A stretch of 22,408 nt of DNA from a virus. The position numbers were made by a program, and so were the translations under genes. How positions within the stretch are numbered: position 1 is the first letter of the stretch; each line of letters starts with the position of its first letter. A model generated the notes under the pieces. That model was not told where the DNA came from, searched no databases, and saw only the letters and a list, made by a program, of their open reading frames with translations. The stretch covers positions 1 to 22,408 of IMG/VR virus record IMGVR_UViG_3300025282_000273. One strand, 5' to 3'. Shown piece by piece: positions 1 through 16,764 of this stretch.

Positions 1-79
1 CCCAGAGCCCAGAGCCCAGAAGATCCCACCAAGGCCCACGCCATCCCATCATGGCCCGGGCCTTCGAGCGTCTCCGGTC

Positions 80-131
80 CTTCGATCGCTGCCTTCGATC
101 GCTGCCTTCGATCGCTGCCTTCGATCCCCGT
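80..131. repeat. 13-bp tandem direct repeat, 3 full copies plus a partial
   Basis: The unit CTTCGATCGCTGC occurs at 80-92, 93-105 and 106-118, followed by a partial copy (CTTCGATC) at 119-126. Related copies stand alone near 62-70 (CTTCGAGCG) and 192-199 (CTTCGATC). Each full unit contains the palindrome CGATCG. A 13-bp period is not a multiple of three, which argues against a coding role. Iteron-like binding of a replication or packaging protein is possible but unproven. Confidence 0.85.
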
Positions 132-297: not shown

Positions 298-414
298 ACT
301 TACAGAGCCCACCTCAGAAATTTTCTAGGCTACCTCCGAACATAGTGACCTTGACCTTGTTTCGCTCAAATAATAGGGTTAAAAAACAAACCAATTAACA
401 AGTGTGTTTTTAAG

Positions 415-430
415 TGTTTCACGTGAAACA
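415..430. promoter_or_regulatory. parS: parS centromere-like site (ParB-binding palindrome)
   Basis: The sequence TGTTTCACGTGAAACA is a perfect 16-bp palindrome identical to the widely conserved bacterial chromosomal parS consensus bound by ParB. Pairing continues outward to 411-434 with one G-T mismatch. It lies in an AT-rich stretch 47 bp upstream of the terminase start codon. A chance 16-base match in 22 kb is very unlikely. No parA or parB gene is in the window, so the site would be used by host ParB or by a phage ParB encoded elsewhere. Identity of the motif is seen; its use by ParB is inference. Confidence 0.75.
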
Positions 431-477
431 TTTATTAATAAGCTTGCTTACTAACTGGGTCCCCCGGAGGTAACTTT

Positions 478-1941
478 ATGGATGGTTTTGAAACGCCACA
501 GGTAGCAGAAAGAAGATTGAAATTAGAACTTAGACTGGCACAACTGGATGAGACTCAGGGTTGCCGTGAAGACTTCATTAAATTTGTAAAAAAGATGTGG
601 CCTGATTTCATTAATGGGGCCCATCACACCATGATTGCAAAAAAGTTCGAGGACATTGCAACAGGAAAGAATAAACGCCTGATTATCAATATGCCTCCAC
701 GGCATACGAAGTCAGAGTTTGCAAGCTATCTCTTTCCGTCATGGATCATTGGCCGCGCCCCTAAAACAAAAATCATTCAAACCACCCATACGGCAGAACT
801 TGCAGTCAACTTTGGCAGAAAGGTTCGTAACCTTCTGGACACAAATGAGTACAAAAAAGTTTTTGATGACGTGCAACTTCAGGCAGATAGTAAGGCTGCG
901 GGACGATGGTCCACGAACCACGGAGGGGAGTACTTTGCGTCTGGTGTTGGAGGTGCCATTACAGGCCGTGGTGCAGATCTGTTAATTATTGACGATCCGC
1001 ATTCGGAGCAGGATGCACTTTCTGATACTGCAATGGAACATGCCTACGAATGGTATACTTCGGGTCCCCGGCAGAGGCTCCAGCCGGGTGGGGCTATAGT
1101 TGTTGTAATGACCCGTTGGTCGTTGCGGGATCTGACTGCAAAAGTAATCAAGGCACAGGGCCAAGACGAACATGCGGACAAGTGGGAGGTAGTGGAGTTT
1201 CCTGCTATCATGCCTTCCGGTAACGCCTGTTGGCCGGAATACTGGAAGTTGCAGGAGCTGGAGGGAGTACGTGCGTCTTTATCTGTTGGAAAGTGGAACG
1301 CACAGTGGCAACAGAACCCTACTTCGGAAGAAGGGGCGATTATCAAGAAGGAGTGGTGGAAACGCTGGGAGCATGACGAGGTTCCGCAACTGGAGTACGT
1401 TATACAAAGTTATGACACGGCTTTCAGCAAGAAGGAAACAGCGGACTATTCTGCCATTACCACCTGGGGTGTATTCCATCCCAAGCAGGAGGGACCCCCG
1501 AACCTTATCCTACTGGATGCAAAGAAGGGGCGGTGGGACTTTCCCGAGCTAAAGAGTACGGCACTGGATCAGTATAACTTCTGGGAGCCTGAGACGGTAA
1601 TCGTGGAAGCTAAGGCATCCGGGATGCCGCTGACGCAGGAGCTTAGACAAGTGGGAATACCTGTTGTAAACTTTACTCCGAGCAAAGGAAACGATAAGGT
1701 AACGAGGGTGCATTCTGTATCTCCACTTTTTGAAAGCGGCATGATATGGGCACCCGAAGAACGTTGGGCAGATGAAGTCATCGAAGAGTGTTCCGCTTTC
1801 CCCAATGGGGAATACGATGACCTTGTTGATAGTACCACGCAAGCCCTGATGAGATACCGTCAGGGGAACTTTGTACAACTGCCCAGTGACGATTGGGTAG
1901 ACACGGAACCGTCCACGTATATTCGGAGCTACTATGGCTGA
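478..1941 (+). CDS. terL: Terminase large subunit (packaging ATPase and nuclease)
   Basis: This 487-aa protein is the motor that pumps DNA into the prohead through the portal and cuts it. The N-terminal ATPase has a Walker A-like loop PPRHTKSE (residues 73-80), in which T replaces the usual G of PPRHGKSE-type terminases. It also has Walker B LLIIDDP (168-174) and a coupling motif VVMTRW (209-214). The C-terminal RNase H-like nuclease shows SYDTAF (D313), VEAKASG (E377) and YDDLVDS (D447, D448, D451), plus the family-typical QWQQNP (276-281). Length is normal for the family. The start is set by GGAGG at 466-470, seven bases before ATG. No small terminase subunit is visible nearby. The stop overlaps the start of the next small gene. 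Confidence 0.95.
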   Translation: MDGFETPQVAERRLKLELRLAQLDETQGCREDFIKFVKKMWPDFINGAHHTMIAKKFEDIATGKNKRLIINMPPRHTKSEFASYLFPSWIIGRAPKTKIIQTTHTAELAVNFGRKVRNLLDTNEYKKVFDDVQLQADSKAAGRWSTNHGGEYFASGVGGAITGRGADLLIIDDPHSEQDALSDTAMEHAYEWYTSGPRQRLQPGGAIVVVMTRWSLRDLTAKVIKAQGQDEHADKWEVVEFPAIMPSGNACWPEYWKLQELEGVRASLSVGKWNAQWQQNPTSEEGAIIKKEWWKRWEHDEVPQLEYVIQSYDTAFSKKETADYSAITTWGVFHPKQEGPPNLILLDAKKGRWDFPELKSTALDQYNFWEPETVIVEAKASGMPLTQELRQVGIPVVNFTPSKGNDKVTRVHSVSPLFESGMIWAPEERWADEVIEECSAFPNGEYDDLVDSTTQALMRYRQGNFVQLPSDDWVDTEPSTYIRSYYG

Positions 1942-2879: not shown

Positions 2880-3960
2880 ATGGCTTACTCCTAGAAAACC
2901 GGGAGATCTTATTCCAAGAGCCGGGGCCCCTGTTACACGGCCCACGGTCCATAGTCCCGGAACAGGTTCACTTCCTCCCACCCATGCAATGCCCATTGAC
3001 CCTTTGGCTGCAAGACTTCCTATTGGACCTCCTTCCAAACAGACTATGGAAGAGATACGTGCGGAGAGCCCTCCGGAAGATGTAGCATGGCGTAGAGCGT
3101 ACCATGGTTCCAACTGGGGTGAGGAAACAATGGGGCACCCCGATAGGTTTCCTGTGTCAACAGATGTAATCCAGCCTATGCAAGCAAGATACGGGGACCT
3201 TGGAACGCATTGGGCGGCAACACCCCGTGTACCAAACAGATTTGCAGCTGGAGTGTTAGGGCAATATAGGGACAGTCCTTTAAAGGGCGAACCGCGAGTG
3301 TATCCGGGGGACATACCTACAAACCTGAAAAAGATAGACCAGCGTGTATATGACACTGCGTTGCGGCGACACTACGGTGATCTATCAGATAAGCTTATAC
3401 CGGACCTGCACCTACGAGATATTATGGAATTTGATACAAGAGCCATACAGAGAGACATAGCTCAGGTAGTGTTTGAAAACGACAAGGATCTTTTCACAGA
3501 GTTTATGCGGTACTCCAGAAAAATGAAGAAGAATGATGCACACAAGATATTTGACATGCTGCAAAGAGGAGAGGCTCCTGACACTGAGGACATTCCAGAA
3601 CACCACAGATTCTCGGGCAAGGAAGTAAAGTACACAACTCCTAGAGGAAACAACCCGCCTGAAACGGTAAAGCATGTGTCTATTGGAGATTACATAATGA
3701 ACTTCGGATGGGTCCCGCCTTCTTGGTCCTCAAGGGTCATAAATAAGTATAGAAGTATACTACAGGACCAAGGCTTTGCTGGAATAGAGTACGAGAACAC
3801 AGCACTTGCAGAAGTACGGGGTCTGACAGAAGAGGACAGACGGAGCTTTGTAACATTTAACACCAGAGAAGAAACGAAACCTGCATTTGGAGAAGTTGGG
3901 GAGTGGCGAAAAGGTGGCCTCGTAGACAAGCCACTTTATGACAGGAACCCTTATGGCTGA
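2866..3960 (+). CDS. Putative ADP-ribosyltransferase-like protein with shared C-terminal tag
   Basis: A 364-aa protein. I chose ATG 2866 over the in-frame ATG at 2851 because AGGA lies six bases upstream and the same arrangement recurs at the next junction. A proline-rich N-terminus (1-60) is followed by YHGS (79-82), LGTHWAATP (112-120), a helical middle, and then GFAGIEYENT (303-312) and SFVTFNTRE (327-335). A start of Y-H-G with a late G-[YF]-x-G-I-x-Y-E-N and S-[YF]-x-x-F segment is the layout of H-Y-E-type ADP-ribosyltransferases, including those in phage polyvalent proteins. The catalytic residues cannot be fixed by eye. It ends with GGLVDKPLYDRNPYG (350-364). It may modify host proteins after injection; this is inference. 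Confidence 0.5.
   Translation: MATDRWLTPRKPGDLIPRAGAPVTRPTVHSPGTGSLPPTHAMPIDPLAARLPIGPPSKQTMEEIRAESPPEDVAWRRAYHGSNWGEETMGHPDRFPVSTDVIQPMQARYGDLGTHWAATPRVPNRFAAGVLGQYRDSPLKGEPRVYPGDIPTNLKKIDQRVYDTALRRHYGDLSDKLIPDLHLRDIMEFDTRAIQRDIAQVVFENDKDLFTEFMRYSRKMKKNDAHKIFDMLQRGEAPDTEDIPEHHRFSGKEVKYTTPRGNNPPETVKHVSIGDYIMNFGWVPPSWSSRVINKYRSILQDQGFAGIEYENTALAEVRGLTEEDRRSFVTFNTREETKPAFGEVGEWRKGGLVDKPLYDRNPYG
3912..3958 (+). repeat. 47-bp repeat, copy 2: C-terminal tag plus next gene's RBS and start
   Basis: Second copy of the element at 2825-2871. It encodes GGLVDKPLYDRNPYG at the end of the upstream protein, while AGGA (3943-3946) and ATG (3953-3955) in the +1 frame start the next gene. The upstream stop TGA (3958-3960) overlaps the first codons of the downstream gene. 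Confidence 0.85.
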
Positions 3961-4324
3961 AATTGACCAAGACATTGCGTCCTTACTTCCGGAGGAACTT
4001 CCCGGTTGGGTACAAAGGGCCATGGACCCTGAAACACCGACCACGGACCAGAAGGAAACTATCCGCAGTTCTTCCAGCTATGTGGACTCTCTGGGCGGAG
4101 AGGTTCTGTATCCAACTATCCGTATGGGGGAACAGGGGCTCTACAAGCCAGAGGACCCGTTACAGGAAGCAATGGACCGTGGTGACTATATACTGGTTCC
4201 CGGACCTCCCGGCGCGGAAACCGCAGCACGGGCCACGGCCCTTTCCAAATATATAAGTGACGTAATGATAGGCGGAGCAAGGGGCAGTCTTATGGACAAA
4301 CCTCTGTATGACAGGCAGGACTAG
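3953..4324 (+). CDS. Small tagged protein of unknown function (123 aa)
   Basis: I do not recognise a named family. ATG 3953 is preferred over the in-frame ATG at 3938 because of AGGA six bases upstream. The segment VLYPTIRMGEQGLYKPEDP (51-69), followed by AMDRGDYILVP and ATALSKYISD (95-103), resembles short domains I associate with phage internal or minor virion proteins, with low certainty. It ends with GSLMDKPLYDRQD (111-123), a diverged copy of the tag carried by the two preceding proteins. The AGGA encoding part of that tail (4317-4320) sits six bases before the GTG start of the next gene, repeating the junction design. Confidence 0.7.
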   Translation: MAEIDQDIASLLPEELPGWVQRAMDPETPTTDQKETIRSSSSYVDSLGGEVLYPTIRMGEQGLYKPEDPLQEAMDRGDYILVPGPPGAETAARATALSKYISDVMIGGARGSLMDKPLYDRQD

Positions 4325-8860: not shown

Positions 8861-11284
8861 ATGGCAGAAAGAACATTACCCAGAAGCAATCTTAGTACGG
8901 CCTCTTTAGTAGAGAGAAAAGAGGGCCTTCCCTACCCTGAACTAGAAGATGGTCCGGGGGCCGATATTGCTGTAGAGGATACTACGGTTATTGAAGCTCC
9001 GGGTCTCAACATAGAGATGGAAGACGACGGCGGAGTGGTCATTGACTTTGATCCTCGCAGTAAAAGGGAAGGTGCCGGAGATTTCTACGACAACCTTGCA
9101 GAAGATATGGATGACCGTGATCTTGGAAAAATTTCTACCGAGATTATGGATGCATATGAAAACAATAAGAATAGTCGCAAGGACTGGGAAGAAACGTACA
9201 CAAATGGTCTTGAACTTCTCGGCTTTAAATATGAAGAGAGAGCGGAACCATTTCGTGGAGCTACAGGAGTAACACATCCTTTACTTGCAGAAGCTGTCAC
9301 CCAGTTTCAGGCACAGGCATTTAGCGAGTTGCTTCCTTCCGGAGGTCCGGTTAGGACAGAGATAATAGGAGAAATAACTCCTGAAGTAGAACAGCAGTCG
9401 GAACGTGTTCGTCATTTTATGAATTACGAACTAATGTGTGTGATGAAAGAGTACACGCCTGAATTCGACCAGATGTTGTTCTATCTCCCGCTATCCGGAT
9501 CTACCTTCAAAAAAGTGTACTACGACGATTTTCTTGGACGAGCTGTAAGCAAGTTTGTTCCAGCAGAGCAGCTTGTAGTTCCATATACCGCTACGGATCT
9601 GGAGACAGCCGAAAACGTAACACATGTAATTCAGATTAGTGAAAATGAGCTTCGTAAAAAACAGGTTGGGGAATTTTACCGAGACATAGAGGTTTCTCCT
9701 TCCCAATCCCTGAGTGATTCCGAAATACGGAAAGAGATGGATGAGATAGGCGGGGTTGAGGCAAGTATTCTGGACAACACAGTAACGCTTTTGGAGTGTC
9801 ATGTTGATCTGGACATAGTCGGATACGAGGACACAGGTGACGGCGGAGAGCCCACAGGAATTAAGTTGCCGTACATAGTTACGGTTTCCGAGAACAATGG
9901 TCAGGTATTAAGTATTCGTAGAAACTGGAATCCTGATGATGAGAGAAAAAAGAAGATACAGTATTTTGTACACTTCAAATTTCTCCCCGGATTCGGGTTT
10001 TATGGGCTTGGTCTCATCCACATGATTGGTGGACTGAGTCGAACGGCGACAGCCGCGCTCCGTCAGCTCATAGACGCTGGAACCCTGTCCAACCTCCCTG
10101 CTGGGTTCAAAGCGAGGGGCCTCCGTATACGGAATGATGATGAGCCGCTGTCGCCGGGAGAATTCCGGGACGTAGACGCACCTGGAGGAGCTATTCGAGA
10201 TGCATTGATGATGCTTCCTTACAAAGGTGCCGATCAAACATTATTCCAGTTGATGAGTTTTTGTGTAGAAGCTGGTCAACGGTTCGCAGCAGTATCCAAC
10301 TTACAGGTAGGTGATGGCAACCAACAAGCTGCTGTTGGCACAACCATTGCAATGCTTGAGCAGGGCGCAAAGGTAATGTCTGCTATACATAAGCGGTTGC
10401 ACTATGCACAAAAAGATGAGTTCTTTCTCCTTGCCCGAGTATTCGGTGAATCACTCCCCCCGGAATATCCTTACAATGTTGTAGGGGCTTCCCGAGAAGT
10501 TAAGGCACAGGATTTTGATGACAGGATTGACGTTGTACCTGTCTCCGATCCTAATATTTTTTCCATGGCCCAACGTGTGACGTTGGCTCAGACAGAGCTT
10601 CAGCTTGCTCAATCGGCTCCGGAATTACATAACCTGTACGAAGCTTATAGAAGAATGTACAAGGCGATTGGAGTACGGGACGTTGATACTATACTTAAAC
10701 CTACGGATCAGGGAGAGCCAGAGCCAAAAGATCCCGCACAGGAAAATTCAGAGGCTTTGGATATGATTCAATTAACAGCTTTTCAAGGACAAAACCATAA
10801 CGCTCATATTATGTCTCATCTTGTGTTTGGATCTACTGGTATGGTAATGCAGATGCCACAAGTAGCTACATCCCTTCAGAAGCATGTCATGGAGCATGTT
10901 GCTTTAAGAGCTAAGGAGCAAGTAGCGGCCCAAATGGCACAAATGCAGGAAGCTCCGAGTATGGAACAAGCTCTTGAAATGGAATCAATGGTTGCAGAAC
11001 TTATTGCACAAGGTATGCAGGAGGTAAAAGCCATGAGTATGCAGATCAGTGGGCAAGGGCAACCGGACCCATTAGTTGCATTAAAGGAACAGGATCTGCA
11101 ACTTAAGGCTCAGAGAGACGCTAATGAGAATGCCGTGGATCAAGCTAGATTGCAGCTTGATGGACAGAAAGCAAGTACAAATGCGGCTCTTGGGGAGGCC
11201 CGTATTAAATCCACAGAGGATATCGCGCAAGCCCGTATTGACGCAGCTAAGGAGCGCGAGACTATGAAGCAGAGAAACCAATAG
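8861..11284 (+). CDS. Portal protein
   Basis: An 807-aa protein that forms the dodecameric DNA channel at one capsid vertex and docks the terminase. The length and order of segments fit large podovirus-type portals: an acidic N-terminus (1-70), NSRKDWEETYTNGLELLGF (about 101-119), RGATGVTHPLLAEAVTQFQAQAF, a long mixed body with GSTFKKVYYD, and HFKFLPGFGFYGLGLIHMIG followed by TATAALRQLIDAGTLSNLP. These are segments I know from marine phage portals. The C-terminal 150 residues are Q/M/A-rich and helical, as expected for a barrel or crown. GAGGT lies just after the previous stop and six bases before ATG. Position right after the accessory block and before the lysis and capsid genes is typical. 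Confidence 0.9.
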   Translation: MAERTLPRSNLSTASLVERKEGLPYPELEDGPGADIAVEDTTVIEAPGLNIEMEDDGGVVIDFDPRSKREGAGDFYDNLAEDMDDRDLGKISTEIMDAYENNKNSRKDWEETYTNGLELLGFKYEERAEPFRGATGVTHPLLAEAVTQFQAQAFSELLPSGGPVRTEIIGEITPEVEQQSERVRHFMNYELMCVMKEYTPEFDQMLFYLPLSGSTFKKVYYDDFLGRAVSKFVPAEQLVVPYTATDLETAENVTHVIQISENELRKKQVGEFYRDIEVSPSQSLSDSEIRKEMDEIGGVEASILDNTVTLLECHVDLDIVGYEDTGDGGEPTGIKLPYIVTVSENNGQVLSIRRNWNPDDERKKKIQYFVHFKFLPGFGFYGLGLIHMIGGLSRTATAALRQLIDAGTLSNLPAGFKARGLRIRNDDEPLSPGEFRDVDAPGGAIRDALMMLPYKGADQTLFQLMSFCVEAGQRFAAVSNLQVGDGNQQAAVGTTIAMLEQGAKVMSAIHKRLHYAQKDEFFLLARVFGESLPPEYPYNVVGASREVKAQDFDDRIDVVPVSDPNIFSMAQRVTLAQTELQLAQSAPELHNLYEAYRRMYKAIGVRDVDTILKPTDQGEPEPKDPAQENSEALDMIQLTAFQGQNHNAHIMSHLVFGSTGMVMQMPQVATSLQKHVMEHVALRAKEQVAAQMAQMQEAPSMEQALEMESMVAELIAQGMQEVKAMSMQISGQGQPDPLVALKEQDLQLKAQRDANENAVDQARLQLDGQKASTNAALGEARIKSTEDIAQARIDAAKERETMKQRNQ

Positions 11285-11293
11285 GAGCAAGTT

Positions 11294-11485
11294 ATGGCTG
11301 TGATAAAAGACGGTAAGTCTATAGGCAAAGTTGCCAAAGGACTAGTTATCGAAGGTCAGGGAACAGTTCCCTACAATGGACCTAAGTCTGTTGACACGCC
11401 TTCTACATCTACTGTTATGGTATCAAAAGGTAAGAAAAAAGGTATGGGTGCCGCTATTCGGGATGGTAGCTATACATATTGTTAG
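11294..11485 (+). CDS. Small conserved phage protein (63 aa)
   Basis: AGGAG precedes ATG by about seven bases. The protein is short, basic and glycine-rich and ends in KKKGMGAAIRDGSYTYC. A C-terminal KxxGMGAAxRxGxYT tail is familiar to me from small proteins downstream of portal genes in marine phages. No function is known. It lies between portal and lysis genes and may be a minor head protein. Confidence 0.65.
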   Translation: MAVIKDGKSIGKVAKGLVIEGQGTVPYNGPKSVDTPSTSTVMVSKGKKKGMGAAIRDGSYTYC

Positions 11486-15185: not shown

Positions 15186-16094
15186 ATGGCTATTAGTAGA
15201 GCGCAACTCGTAAAAGAGTTGGAACCCGGCCTAAACGCCTTGTTTGGTCTTGAGTATGATAACTATGACAGAGAGCATTCTGAAATCTTCACAATGGAGA
15301 GTTCAGATCGCGCTTTTGAAGAAGAAGTTATGCTCAGTGGATTCGGAACTGCACCAACGAAAAGTGAAGGCACTGCCGTCAATTATGACGATGCACAAGA
15401 AGCTTTCACAGCTCGGTATACCATGGAGACTATTGCACTTGCATTCTCCATAACTGAGGAGGCTATCGAAGATAATCTTTATGATCGACTAGCTGCTCGG
15501 TATACGAGAGCGTTGGCACGTAGTATGAGTCAGACTAAAGAAGTCAAGGCCGCTGCGGTTCTTAACAATGCATTTGACAGCACGTATACAGGAGGAGATG
15601 CGAAGGAGCTTTGTGCTACGGACCATCCACTTGTTAGCGGAAGTACTTTCAGAAACGAGCTTTCAACAGCAGCCGATTTAAATGAGACTAGCCTTGAGCA
15701 AGCTCTCATTGATATCGCTGGTTTTGTTGATGAGCGTGGATTGAAAGTGGCTGTCAAAGGTCAAAAACTAATCGTTCCAAAAGAACTTCAGTTTACTTCT
15801 GATCGTCTTTTGGAATCAACACTACGAACCGGAACTGCTGATAATGACATCAATGCAGTTCGCAACATGGGAATGCTTCCACAGGGTTACACTGTGAACC
15901 ATTTCTTAACTGACACTGATGCTTGGTTCATCCGCACGGATGCTCCAAACGGCATGAAAGGTTTTAACAGAACTTCTGTAAAAACTTCCATGGAAGGTGA
16001 TTTTGATACAGGAAATGTGAGGTACAAGGCCCGTGAACGCTATGCGTTTGGCTGGTCAGATCCTCGCGGTATCTTTGGGTCACCTGGAGCATAA
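15186..16094 (+). CDS. Major capsid protein
   Basis: A 302-aa protein that forms the head shell. It begins ISRAQLVKELEPGLNALFGLEYD and continues with AFEEEVMLSGFGTAP, YTMETIALAFSITEEAIEDN and YDRLAARYTRALARSMSQTKE. It then has LCATDHPLVSG, GQKLIVPKELQFTSDRLL and YKARERYAFGWSDPRGIFGS. The sequence fits HK97-fold capsid proteins of the Mu gpT-like branch used by many marine phages. AGGAGGG gives a strong ribosome binding site, and a terminator follows the gene, as expected for the most abundant transcript. No long N-terminal delta domain is visible, in line with a separate scaffold. Confidence 0.9.
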   Translation: MAISRAQLVKELEPGLNALFGLEYDNYDREHSEIFTMESSDRAFEEEVMLSGFGTAPTKSEGTAVNYDDAQEAFTARYTMETIALAFSITEEAIEDNLYDRLAARYTRALARSMSQTKEVKAAAVLNNAFDSTYTGGDAKELCATDHPLVSGSTFRNELSTAADLNETSLEQALIDIAGFVDERGLKVAVKGQKLIVPKELQFTSDRLLESTLRTGTADNDINAVRNMGMLPQGYTVNHFLTDTDAWFIRTDAPNGMKGFNRTSVKTSMEGDFDTGNVRYKARERYAFGWSDPRGIFGSPGA

Positions 16095-16215: not shown

Positions 16216-16764
16216 ATGGCTAATACAACATTTAACGGTCCCGTCCGTTCTGAAAACGGGTTTAAAGTTATTAACGTTGCCGAAGCAACGGGAGCTGTCA
16301 CTGAGACTTCTTCCCAAGCATCTACAGGCATCTTTGTCAATAAATTTATCAAGCATGTTGGTATCGTTACTGGTGTCACTGTAAACACCACGGCTGGTGA
16401 TAGTCCTGCTATTGGTGAGTTCACGCAACCAGCTAATACTATCATAACCAATATCAAGATATTCTGTGCCACGGCTCCAGTTATTGGGACGGGCGATATT
16501 GGCTACGAAGTTGGGACTACTAGTTCTGGCGCACAGATCGTTGCGGCTGTTACTGACCAGATTCTTGATGGTGGTACTACGGTAGTACTCGGAAATGTGA
16601 CTTTGCCTACGCTAGTAACTCAGACTGAGAGTGGTACTACTGCCCCGGCTTCTGTTCAGTATGCGTCAGCAGAGAGAACCATTTACTGCAATATTACAAA
16701 TACGGTAGATGCAACCACGGCAGGTTCTTTCACCTTCATCATTGAGTATGTGCAAGTTGCATAG
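16216..16764 (+). CDS. Beta-rich virion protein, decoration or head-fibre type (182 aa)
   Basis: The protein starts ANTTFNGPVRSENGFKVIN, a beginning shared by proteins placed after the capsid gene in marine phages. The rest is rich in T, V, G and A (VTGVTVNTTAGDSPAIGEFT, ILDGGTTVVLGNVTLPTLV) and ends in alternating strands (FTFIIEYVQVA), fitting a beta sandwich. It is preceded by the pseudoknot leader and GAAGGAAC. No TM or enzyme motif. A surface decoration role is likely but inferred from position and composition. Confidence 0.65.
   Translation: MANTTFNGPVRSENGFKVINVAEATGAVTETSSQASTGIFVNKFIKHVGIVTGVTVNTTAGDSPAIGEFTQPANTIITNIKIFCATAPVIGTGDIGYEVGTTSSGAQIVAAVTDQILDGGTTVVLGNVTLPTLVTQTESGTTAPASVQYASAERTIYCNITNTVDATTAGSFTFIIEYVQVA

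Follow-up and report, generated by a model that had tools for sequence, protein, structure and literature searches.

What does a perfect bacterial centromere site do in a tailed phage in which no partition protein is found? We address this question for the window, by which we mean the whole 22,408-nucleotide (22.4-kb) viral contig analysed. It starts ~480 bp before the large terminase gene (terL) of a tailed phage, and downstream of terL come genes for the portal, GroES, the major capsid protein and further structural proteins. Judged by TerL identity (61-69%), its closest named phages are 023Pt_psg01, HTVC027P, DSL-LC04 and HTVC023P. The features of the window are:

79..126, no strand: GC-rich tandem repeat upstream of parS (13-bp unit, 3.7 copies)
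353..374, plus strand: upstream block CCTTGTTTCGCTCAAATAAT, found by visual comparison and retained in most close relatives; queried as a candidate promoter or packaging signal
411..434, no strand: imperfect 24-bp extension of the palindrome, one G.T mismatch at 414/431
415..430, no strand: parS, TGTTTCACGTGAAACA, a sequence match kept in relatives
478..1941, plus strand: terL, large terminase subunit (PHROG 38, E=4e-112)
2826-2879, 3913-3960 and 4283-4324: ends of three ORFs coding for a similar C-terminal peptide
8861..11284, plus strand: portal gene; other family members have parS just before or just after it
15186..16094, plus strand: major capsid gene, followed by parS in another branch

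The original prediction described positions 415-430 as the canonical ParB-binding palindrome, with pairing extended to 24 bp, next to the terminase gene. The site indeed matches the 16-bp consensus of bacterial chromosomal parS at 16 of 16 bases as a perfect palindrome with 0 mismatches. It is the only match at ≤3 mismatches in the window, where shuffles average 0.07, and by arithmetic ~5e-6 exact parS sites are expected by chance in 22 kb. Its neighbour is as described, since terL is the first gene after the site and its ATG lies 48 bp away. The wider pairing stands only in part: the 16-bp core is perfect and the extension pairs at 11 of 12 positions, while outside the core positions -2, -1 and +17 are partly conserved among relatives. 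An Rfam search of the region gave 0 matches and no terminator-like site was seen at the window parS, and we rejected an RNA element or terminator on these grounds; an RNA hairpin, moreover, could do without an invariant sequence.

We collected 80 viral loci by TerL alone, without regard to parS. In the closest clade (TerL identity 84-90%), 27 loci include sequence before terL, and the exact palindrome is found in the terL leader of 24 of them, usually 30-50 bp before the gene, with the proviso that IMG/VR contigs may be near-duplicates of each other. The other three comprise L125 and L146, with one mismatch each, and L130, with no site. Thus the concern that the palindrome might be absent from close relatives was dispelled. 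Three loci (L131, L138 and L146) carry a small extra gene before terL, and there the palindrome precedes the extra gene. An alignment of 24 sequences centred on the palindrome, of which one is the window and two are more distant loci, gives 1.75-2.0 bits in each of the 16 core columns and ~0.1-0.5 bits in most flanking columns, with about two bases beside the core reaching 1.0-1.35. The sole symmetric change replaces T by C at position 5 and the opposing A by G (L149, L167, L175, L186 and L190), which yields the half-site GTTCCAC. Likewise, the TGTTNCACGTGNAACA forms in the 80 TerL-chosen loci (30 sites) are T/T (25) and C/C (5), with no others, so that variation is restricted to what ParB tolerates (T/C, at times N, at position 5, with the core fixed). 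Some long records of the same TerL family (60.9, 56.4 and 57.8 kb) are without any parS, indicating that the site is non-essential to this phage type.

Scanning 2.9 million IMG/VR contigs, we found TGTTTCACGTGAAACA, TGTTCCACGTGGAACA and the hybrid TGTTTCACGTGGAACA on at least 120 contigs each, the hybrid being non-palindromic and so matchable in either orientation. Control palindromes were found on 1 contig (reversed) and 5 contigs (arms shuffled). Variants with A or G at position 5 gave 4 and 29 stretches, of which the G variant is the weakest control, since N is tolerated there by some ParBs and family members supply 7 of the 29. The few control matches, together with the shuffles at ≤3 mismatches, led us to reject a chance match. 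When family membership was defined by TerL, portal or capsid identity ≥38%, the family accounted for about a quarter of the parS matches listed (38/120 for TGTTTCACGTGAAACA, 26/118 for TGTTCCACGTGGAACA and 24/115 for TGTTTCACGTGGAACA) and for 0/10 of the reversed, shuffled and A control matches. Of the first 50 viral contigs bearing parS, regardless of kind, 2 encode ParB_N; many of the 50 are short fragments, so that the viruses truly without ParB are fewer than this count suggests. It follows that parS is common on viral-labelled contigs without ParB on the same contig, which bears on the use of parS for locating origins or plasmids in metagenomes.

The original prediction saw no ParA or ParB gene, and profile searches uphold it. 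ParA, ParB and HTH_ParB were not found in the window record, and PF02195, PF17762 and PF13614 (ParB_N, HTH_ParB and ParA AAA_31) were absent from the related records searched, in which the positive controls were found. The parS-bearing family members negative for ParB_N and ParA include records of 61.5, 55.4, 49.0, 41.0 and 40.5 kb; the closest relatives of the window phage are fragments. A phage-encoded ParB was rejected for the window and the relatives searched, and the parA and parB of a self-contained phage ParABS were not found on these elements. Phage-plasmids and extrachromosomal prophages, for example among mycobacteriophages, encode ParA and ParB; they likewise have parS on a phage genome, but here the proteins were not found. 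Because no phage ParB was found, host ParB is the obvious candidate for the binder.

Chromosomal parS, the centromere bound by ParB (Spo0J), has the same 16-bp palindrome and the same T/C freedom at position 5. It lies near the bacterial oriC, whereas the phage site lies at head and packaging genes, usually in one copy, on genomes without ParA and ParB. Hyphomonas and Caulobacter use parS of the TGTTTCACGTGAAACA type, and in a survey table the Hyphomonas neptunium entry is identical to TGTTTCACGTGAAACA and that of Burkholderia chromosome I is tGTTNCACGTGAAACa (PMC7022226). The half-sites bound best by Pseudomonas aeruginosa ParB are GTTTCAC and GTTCCAC (PMC10419367). A scan of genome contigs returned a single family contig, in a Maricaulis MAG (L222); this phage contig is without parS, and one contig of the MAG bears two exact parS. 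A mobile element with partition sites and without partition proteins is known in SGI1, which hijacks the ParABS of IncC plasmids via its own parS-like sites, with binding shown (PMC10954446). SGI1 is the closest precedent for ParB theft by a bare site. There the stolen system is a plasmid's, whereas the site described here is, by sequence, of the widespread chromosomal type and is carried by an apparently lytic virus. We found no report of a phage parS without ParB in the open-access literature searched.

Across the family, parS precedes terL by 18-63 bp or by 89-178 bp, in several of the latter cases on the upstream side of a promoter-like region, and four loci (L097, L296, L333 and L334) have two sites 24 bp apart before terL. 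Other members have parS 280-530 bp after terL, 57-375 bp before or 46-227 bp after portal, inside a scaffold-like gene (L008 and L267), or downstream of the capsid gene at a distance of 32-63 bp, where a terminator-like hairpin often comes immediately before it. The L221 site shares bases with a start codon (ATGTTTCACGTGAAACA, MFHVKQ), and the sites of L175 and L186 lie in frame within coding sequence and encode ...DVPRGT..., with nearly the same sequence in L190. Most family genomes have one or two sites. Relative to the start of terL, exact sites in whole TerL-chosen records range from about -0.3 to +7.7 kb; among the 40-62 kb records chosen by parS, which were picked partly by their terL-portal neighbourhood, most sites are likewise near terL-portal. 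When site position is mapped as a label on a 121-row TerL tree, 26 changes are required, and shuffled labels require 61 on average; the tree is a quick one in which some parts are weak and some branches long, and many of its rows were included for carrying parS. parS was apparently placed several times independently, and we claim no number. Because the site moves between places, a strict terL operator was rejected, and control of terL expression, an effect suggested in the original prediction, is unlikely as the sole use.

We judge it probable, though far from certain, that the palindrome is a working parS that loads host chromosomal ParB on the phage genome to a benefit in cis. A ParB loading site best explains a near-invariant palindrome that moves, even into coding sequence, and varies as ParB allows. 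That a parS-type site is kept by selection in phages without ParAB of their own is strongly supported by the comparisons above, and phages of this family probably recruit host ParB to their own DNA. Host ParB would bind the site, close as a CTP clamp and slide over the neighbouring phage genes, as on chromosomes. A ParB-coated and possibly condensin-loaded region would then form on phage DNA and may help replicating phage genomes to be organised, positioned or retained inside the cell. The benefit would act in cis and would extend beyond an operator function for terL. This cis effect through ParB clamps is our first choice, held with reasonable confidence, over damping of late genes, a decoy and an episome. 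Thus the core of the original prediction, a genuine selected parS in a phage without ParAB, stands, while control of terL alone and use in an extrachromosomal prophage lose ground. A bolder version, which we offer tentatively and consider doubtful, is that apparently lytic phages repeatedly gained parS in the head and packaging region, where host ParB clamps, diluted as genomes multiply, would gauge genome dosage or organise DNA and in this way set the timing of late expression or packaging.

Replicating phage genomes might instead soak up host ParB clamps with their parS sites, disturbing chromosome segregation and division of the host. The sequence is of the perfect, high-affinity kind and its copy number climbs with phage replication; parS copies of SGI1 destabilise the helper plasmid in a similar manner (PMC10954446), and other phage contigs hold several sites, with five each in L017 and L044. 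Nevertheless, such a decoy should favour many copies, and the one or two sites per genome in most of the family weakly disfavour it. A decoy should also be indifferent to position, whereas the sites in whole TerL-chosen records lie near terL and portal. We regard a pure decoy as unlikely.

ParB clamps loaded in the head region might instead slow transcription of head genes at low genome number and free it once replication dilutes ParB. Placement of sites at the start of the terL-portal-capsid region, or inside it, speaks for this. Plasmid ParBs silence flanking genes over kilobases, but Bacillus subtilis ParB at native levels leaves neighbouring genes unsilenced (PMC7333895). P. aeruginosa ParB is reported to repress promoters near parS3 and parS4 (PMC5521831). 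In the family, however, parS can be upstream or downstream of the promoter-like region, or within genes, and no clear promoter was seen at parS in the window. Such late-gene control is likewise unlikely and ranks below the decoy.

Could the phage genome persist unintegrated, in pseudolysogeny, by riding on host ParABS? A single, position-free and perfect site would be in keeping with this, as a single parS together with a chromosomal par operon is able to stabilise plasmids that are otherwise unstable (PMC7022226). Tyrosine integrase (PF00589), the mark of an integrating temperate phage, was absent in 25 records including 4 complete genomes, so that integration is not the route. ParA was also not found in these 25 records, no plasmid replication gene was seen, and the relative HTVC027P is described as obligately lytic (PMC12753301). 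The early region of the relative L213 encodes primase, helicases, PolA, MT-A70 methylase, TerS and one small Cro/C1 protein, and the genes of the relatives resemble a lytic replication set, which disfavours classical lysogeny. Together these results weaken use as an extrachromosomal prophage, and we consider episome maintenance improbable.

The palindrome might also be the operator of a repressor or activator made by the phage itself, its identity with parS being accidental. This would fit the many copies that stand 18-63 bp ahead of the start codon in the terL leader, and the Cro/C1-type HTH protein of one relative (L213 5670-5951). It is nevertheless highly improbable, and an XRE operator was rejected: only 4 of 26 records contain an HTH_3 protein, the long parS-bearing G166, G147 and G053 are among those without one, and HTH_3 does not follow parS across relatives. 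The HTH-bearing record is without a second site at its HTH gene, the sites shift to unrelated places and into coding sequence, and the tolerated substitutions are those of ParB.

If the preferred reading, host ParB loaded in cis, is true, a 16-bp site is all that apparently lytic phages use to exploit the machinery that segregates host chromosomes, which raises the testable question of what ParB does for a virus. The cultured SAR11 phage HTVC027P is a possible laboratory model. It carries a one-mismatch parS, CGTTTCACGTGAAACA, between annotated genes (L203 15843; record 16412-16427) as its only site, and HTVC023P is without parS. SAR11 podoviruses of the HTVC023P type share primase, PolA, GroES and portal with the window phage, and the words ParB and intergenic are absent from the paper on them (PMC9599517).

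A different phage group (L017, L044 and L053), with TerL ~28% identical to that of the window, has three to five exact parS, and the five of L044 are all found in the 1 kb preceding terL. The 116.7-kb contig of L087 has eleven hybrid TGTTTCACGTGGAACA sites and one exact parS within 14 kb. On a 23-kb viral contig (IMGVR_UViG_3300037423_000235; L350 and L353), TGTTACACGTGTAACA, the parS form bearing A at position 5, recurs about eight times and may belong to a partition system whose specificity has changed. In L213, AGAGAAGGAGATTTAACATG is repeated four times in perfect tandem at 11401-11480, and each copy includes a Shine-Dalgarno-like stretch and an ATG. A near-complete parS-bearing relative (G166; L347-L349) encodes a protein that matches the HlyC acyltransferase family (Pfam PF02794, E=3.6e-16), which is unexpected in a phage.

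The repeat region upstream of parS is hypervariable among relatives, and contigs often break there. GC-rich tandem repeats with differing units occupy positions 1-300 of the window and the same region of L122, L128, L134, L136 and L140, just upstream of terL, where numerous contigs stop; they could be a replication origin or packaging site. Between terL and portal, three consecutive ORFs of the window end in the near-identical C-terminal peptide GG(F/L)VDKPLYDR or GSLMDKPLYDR. Single copies of the peptide are found in many close relatives, and it is possibly a shared sorting, packaging or cleavage tag.
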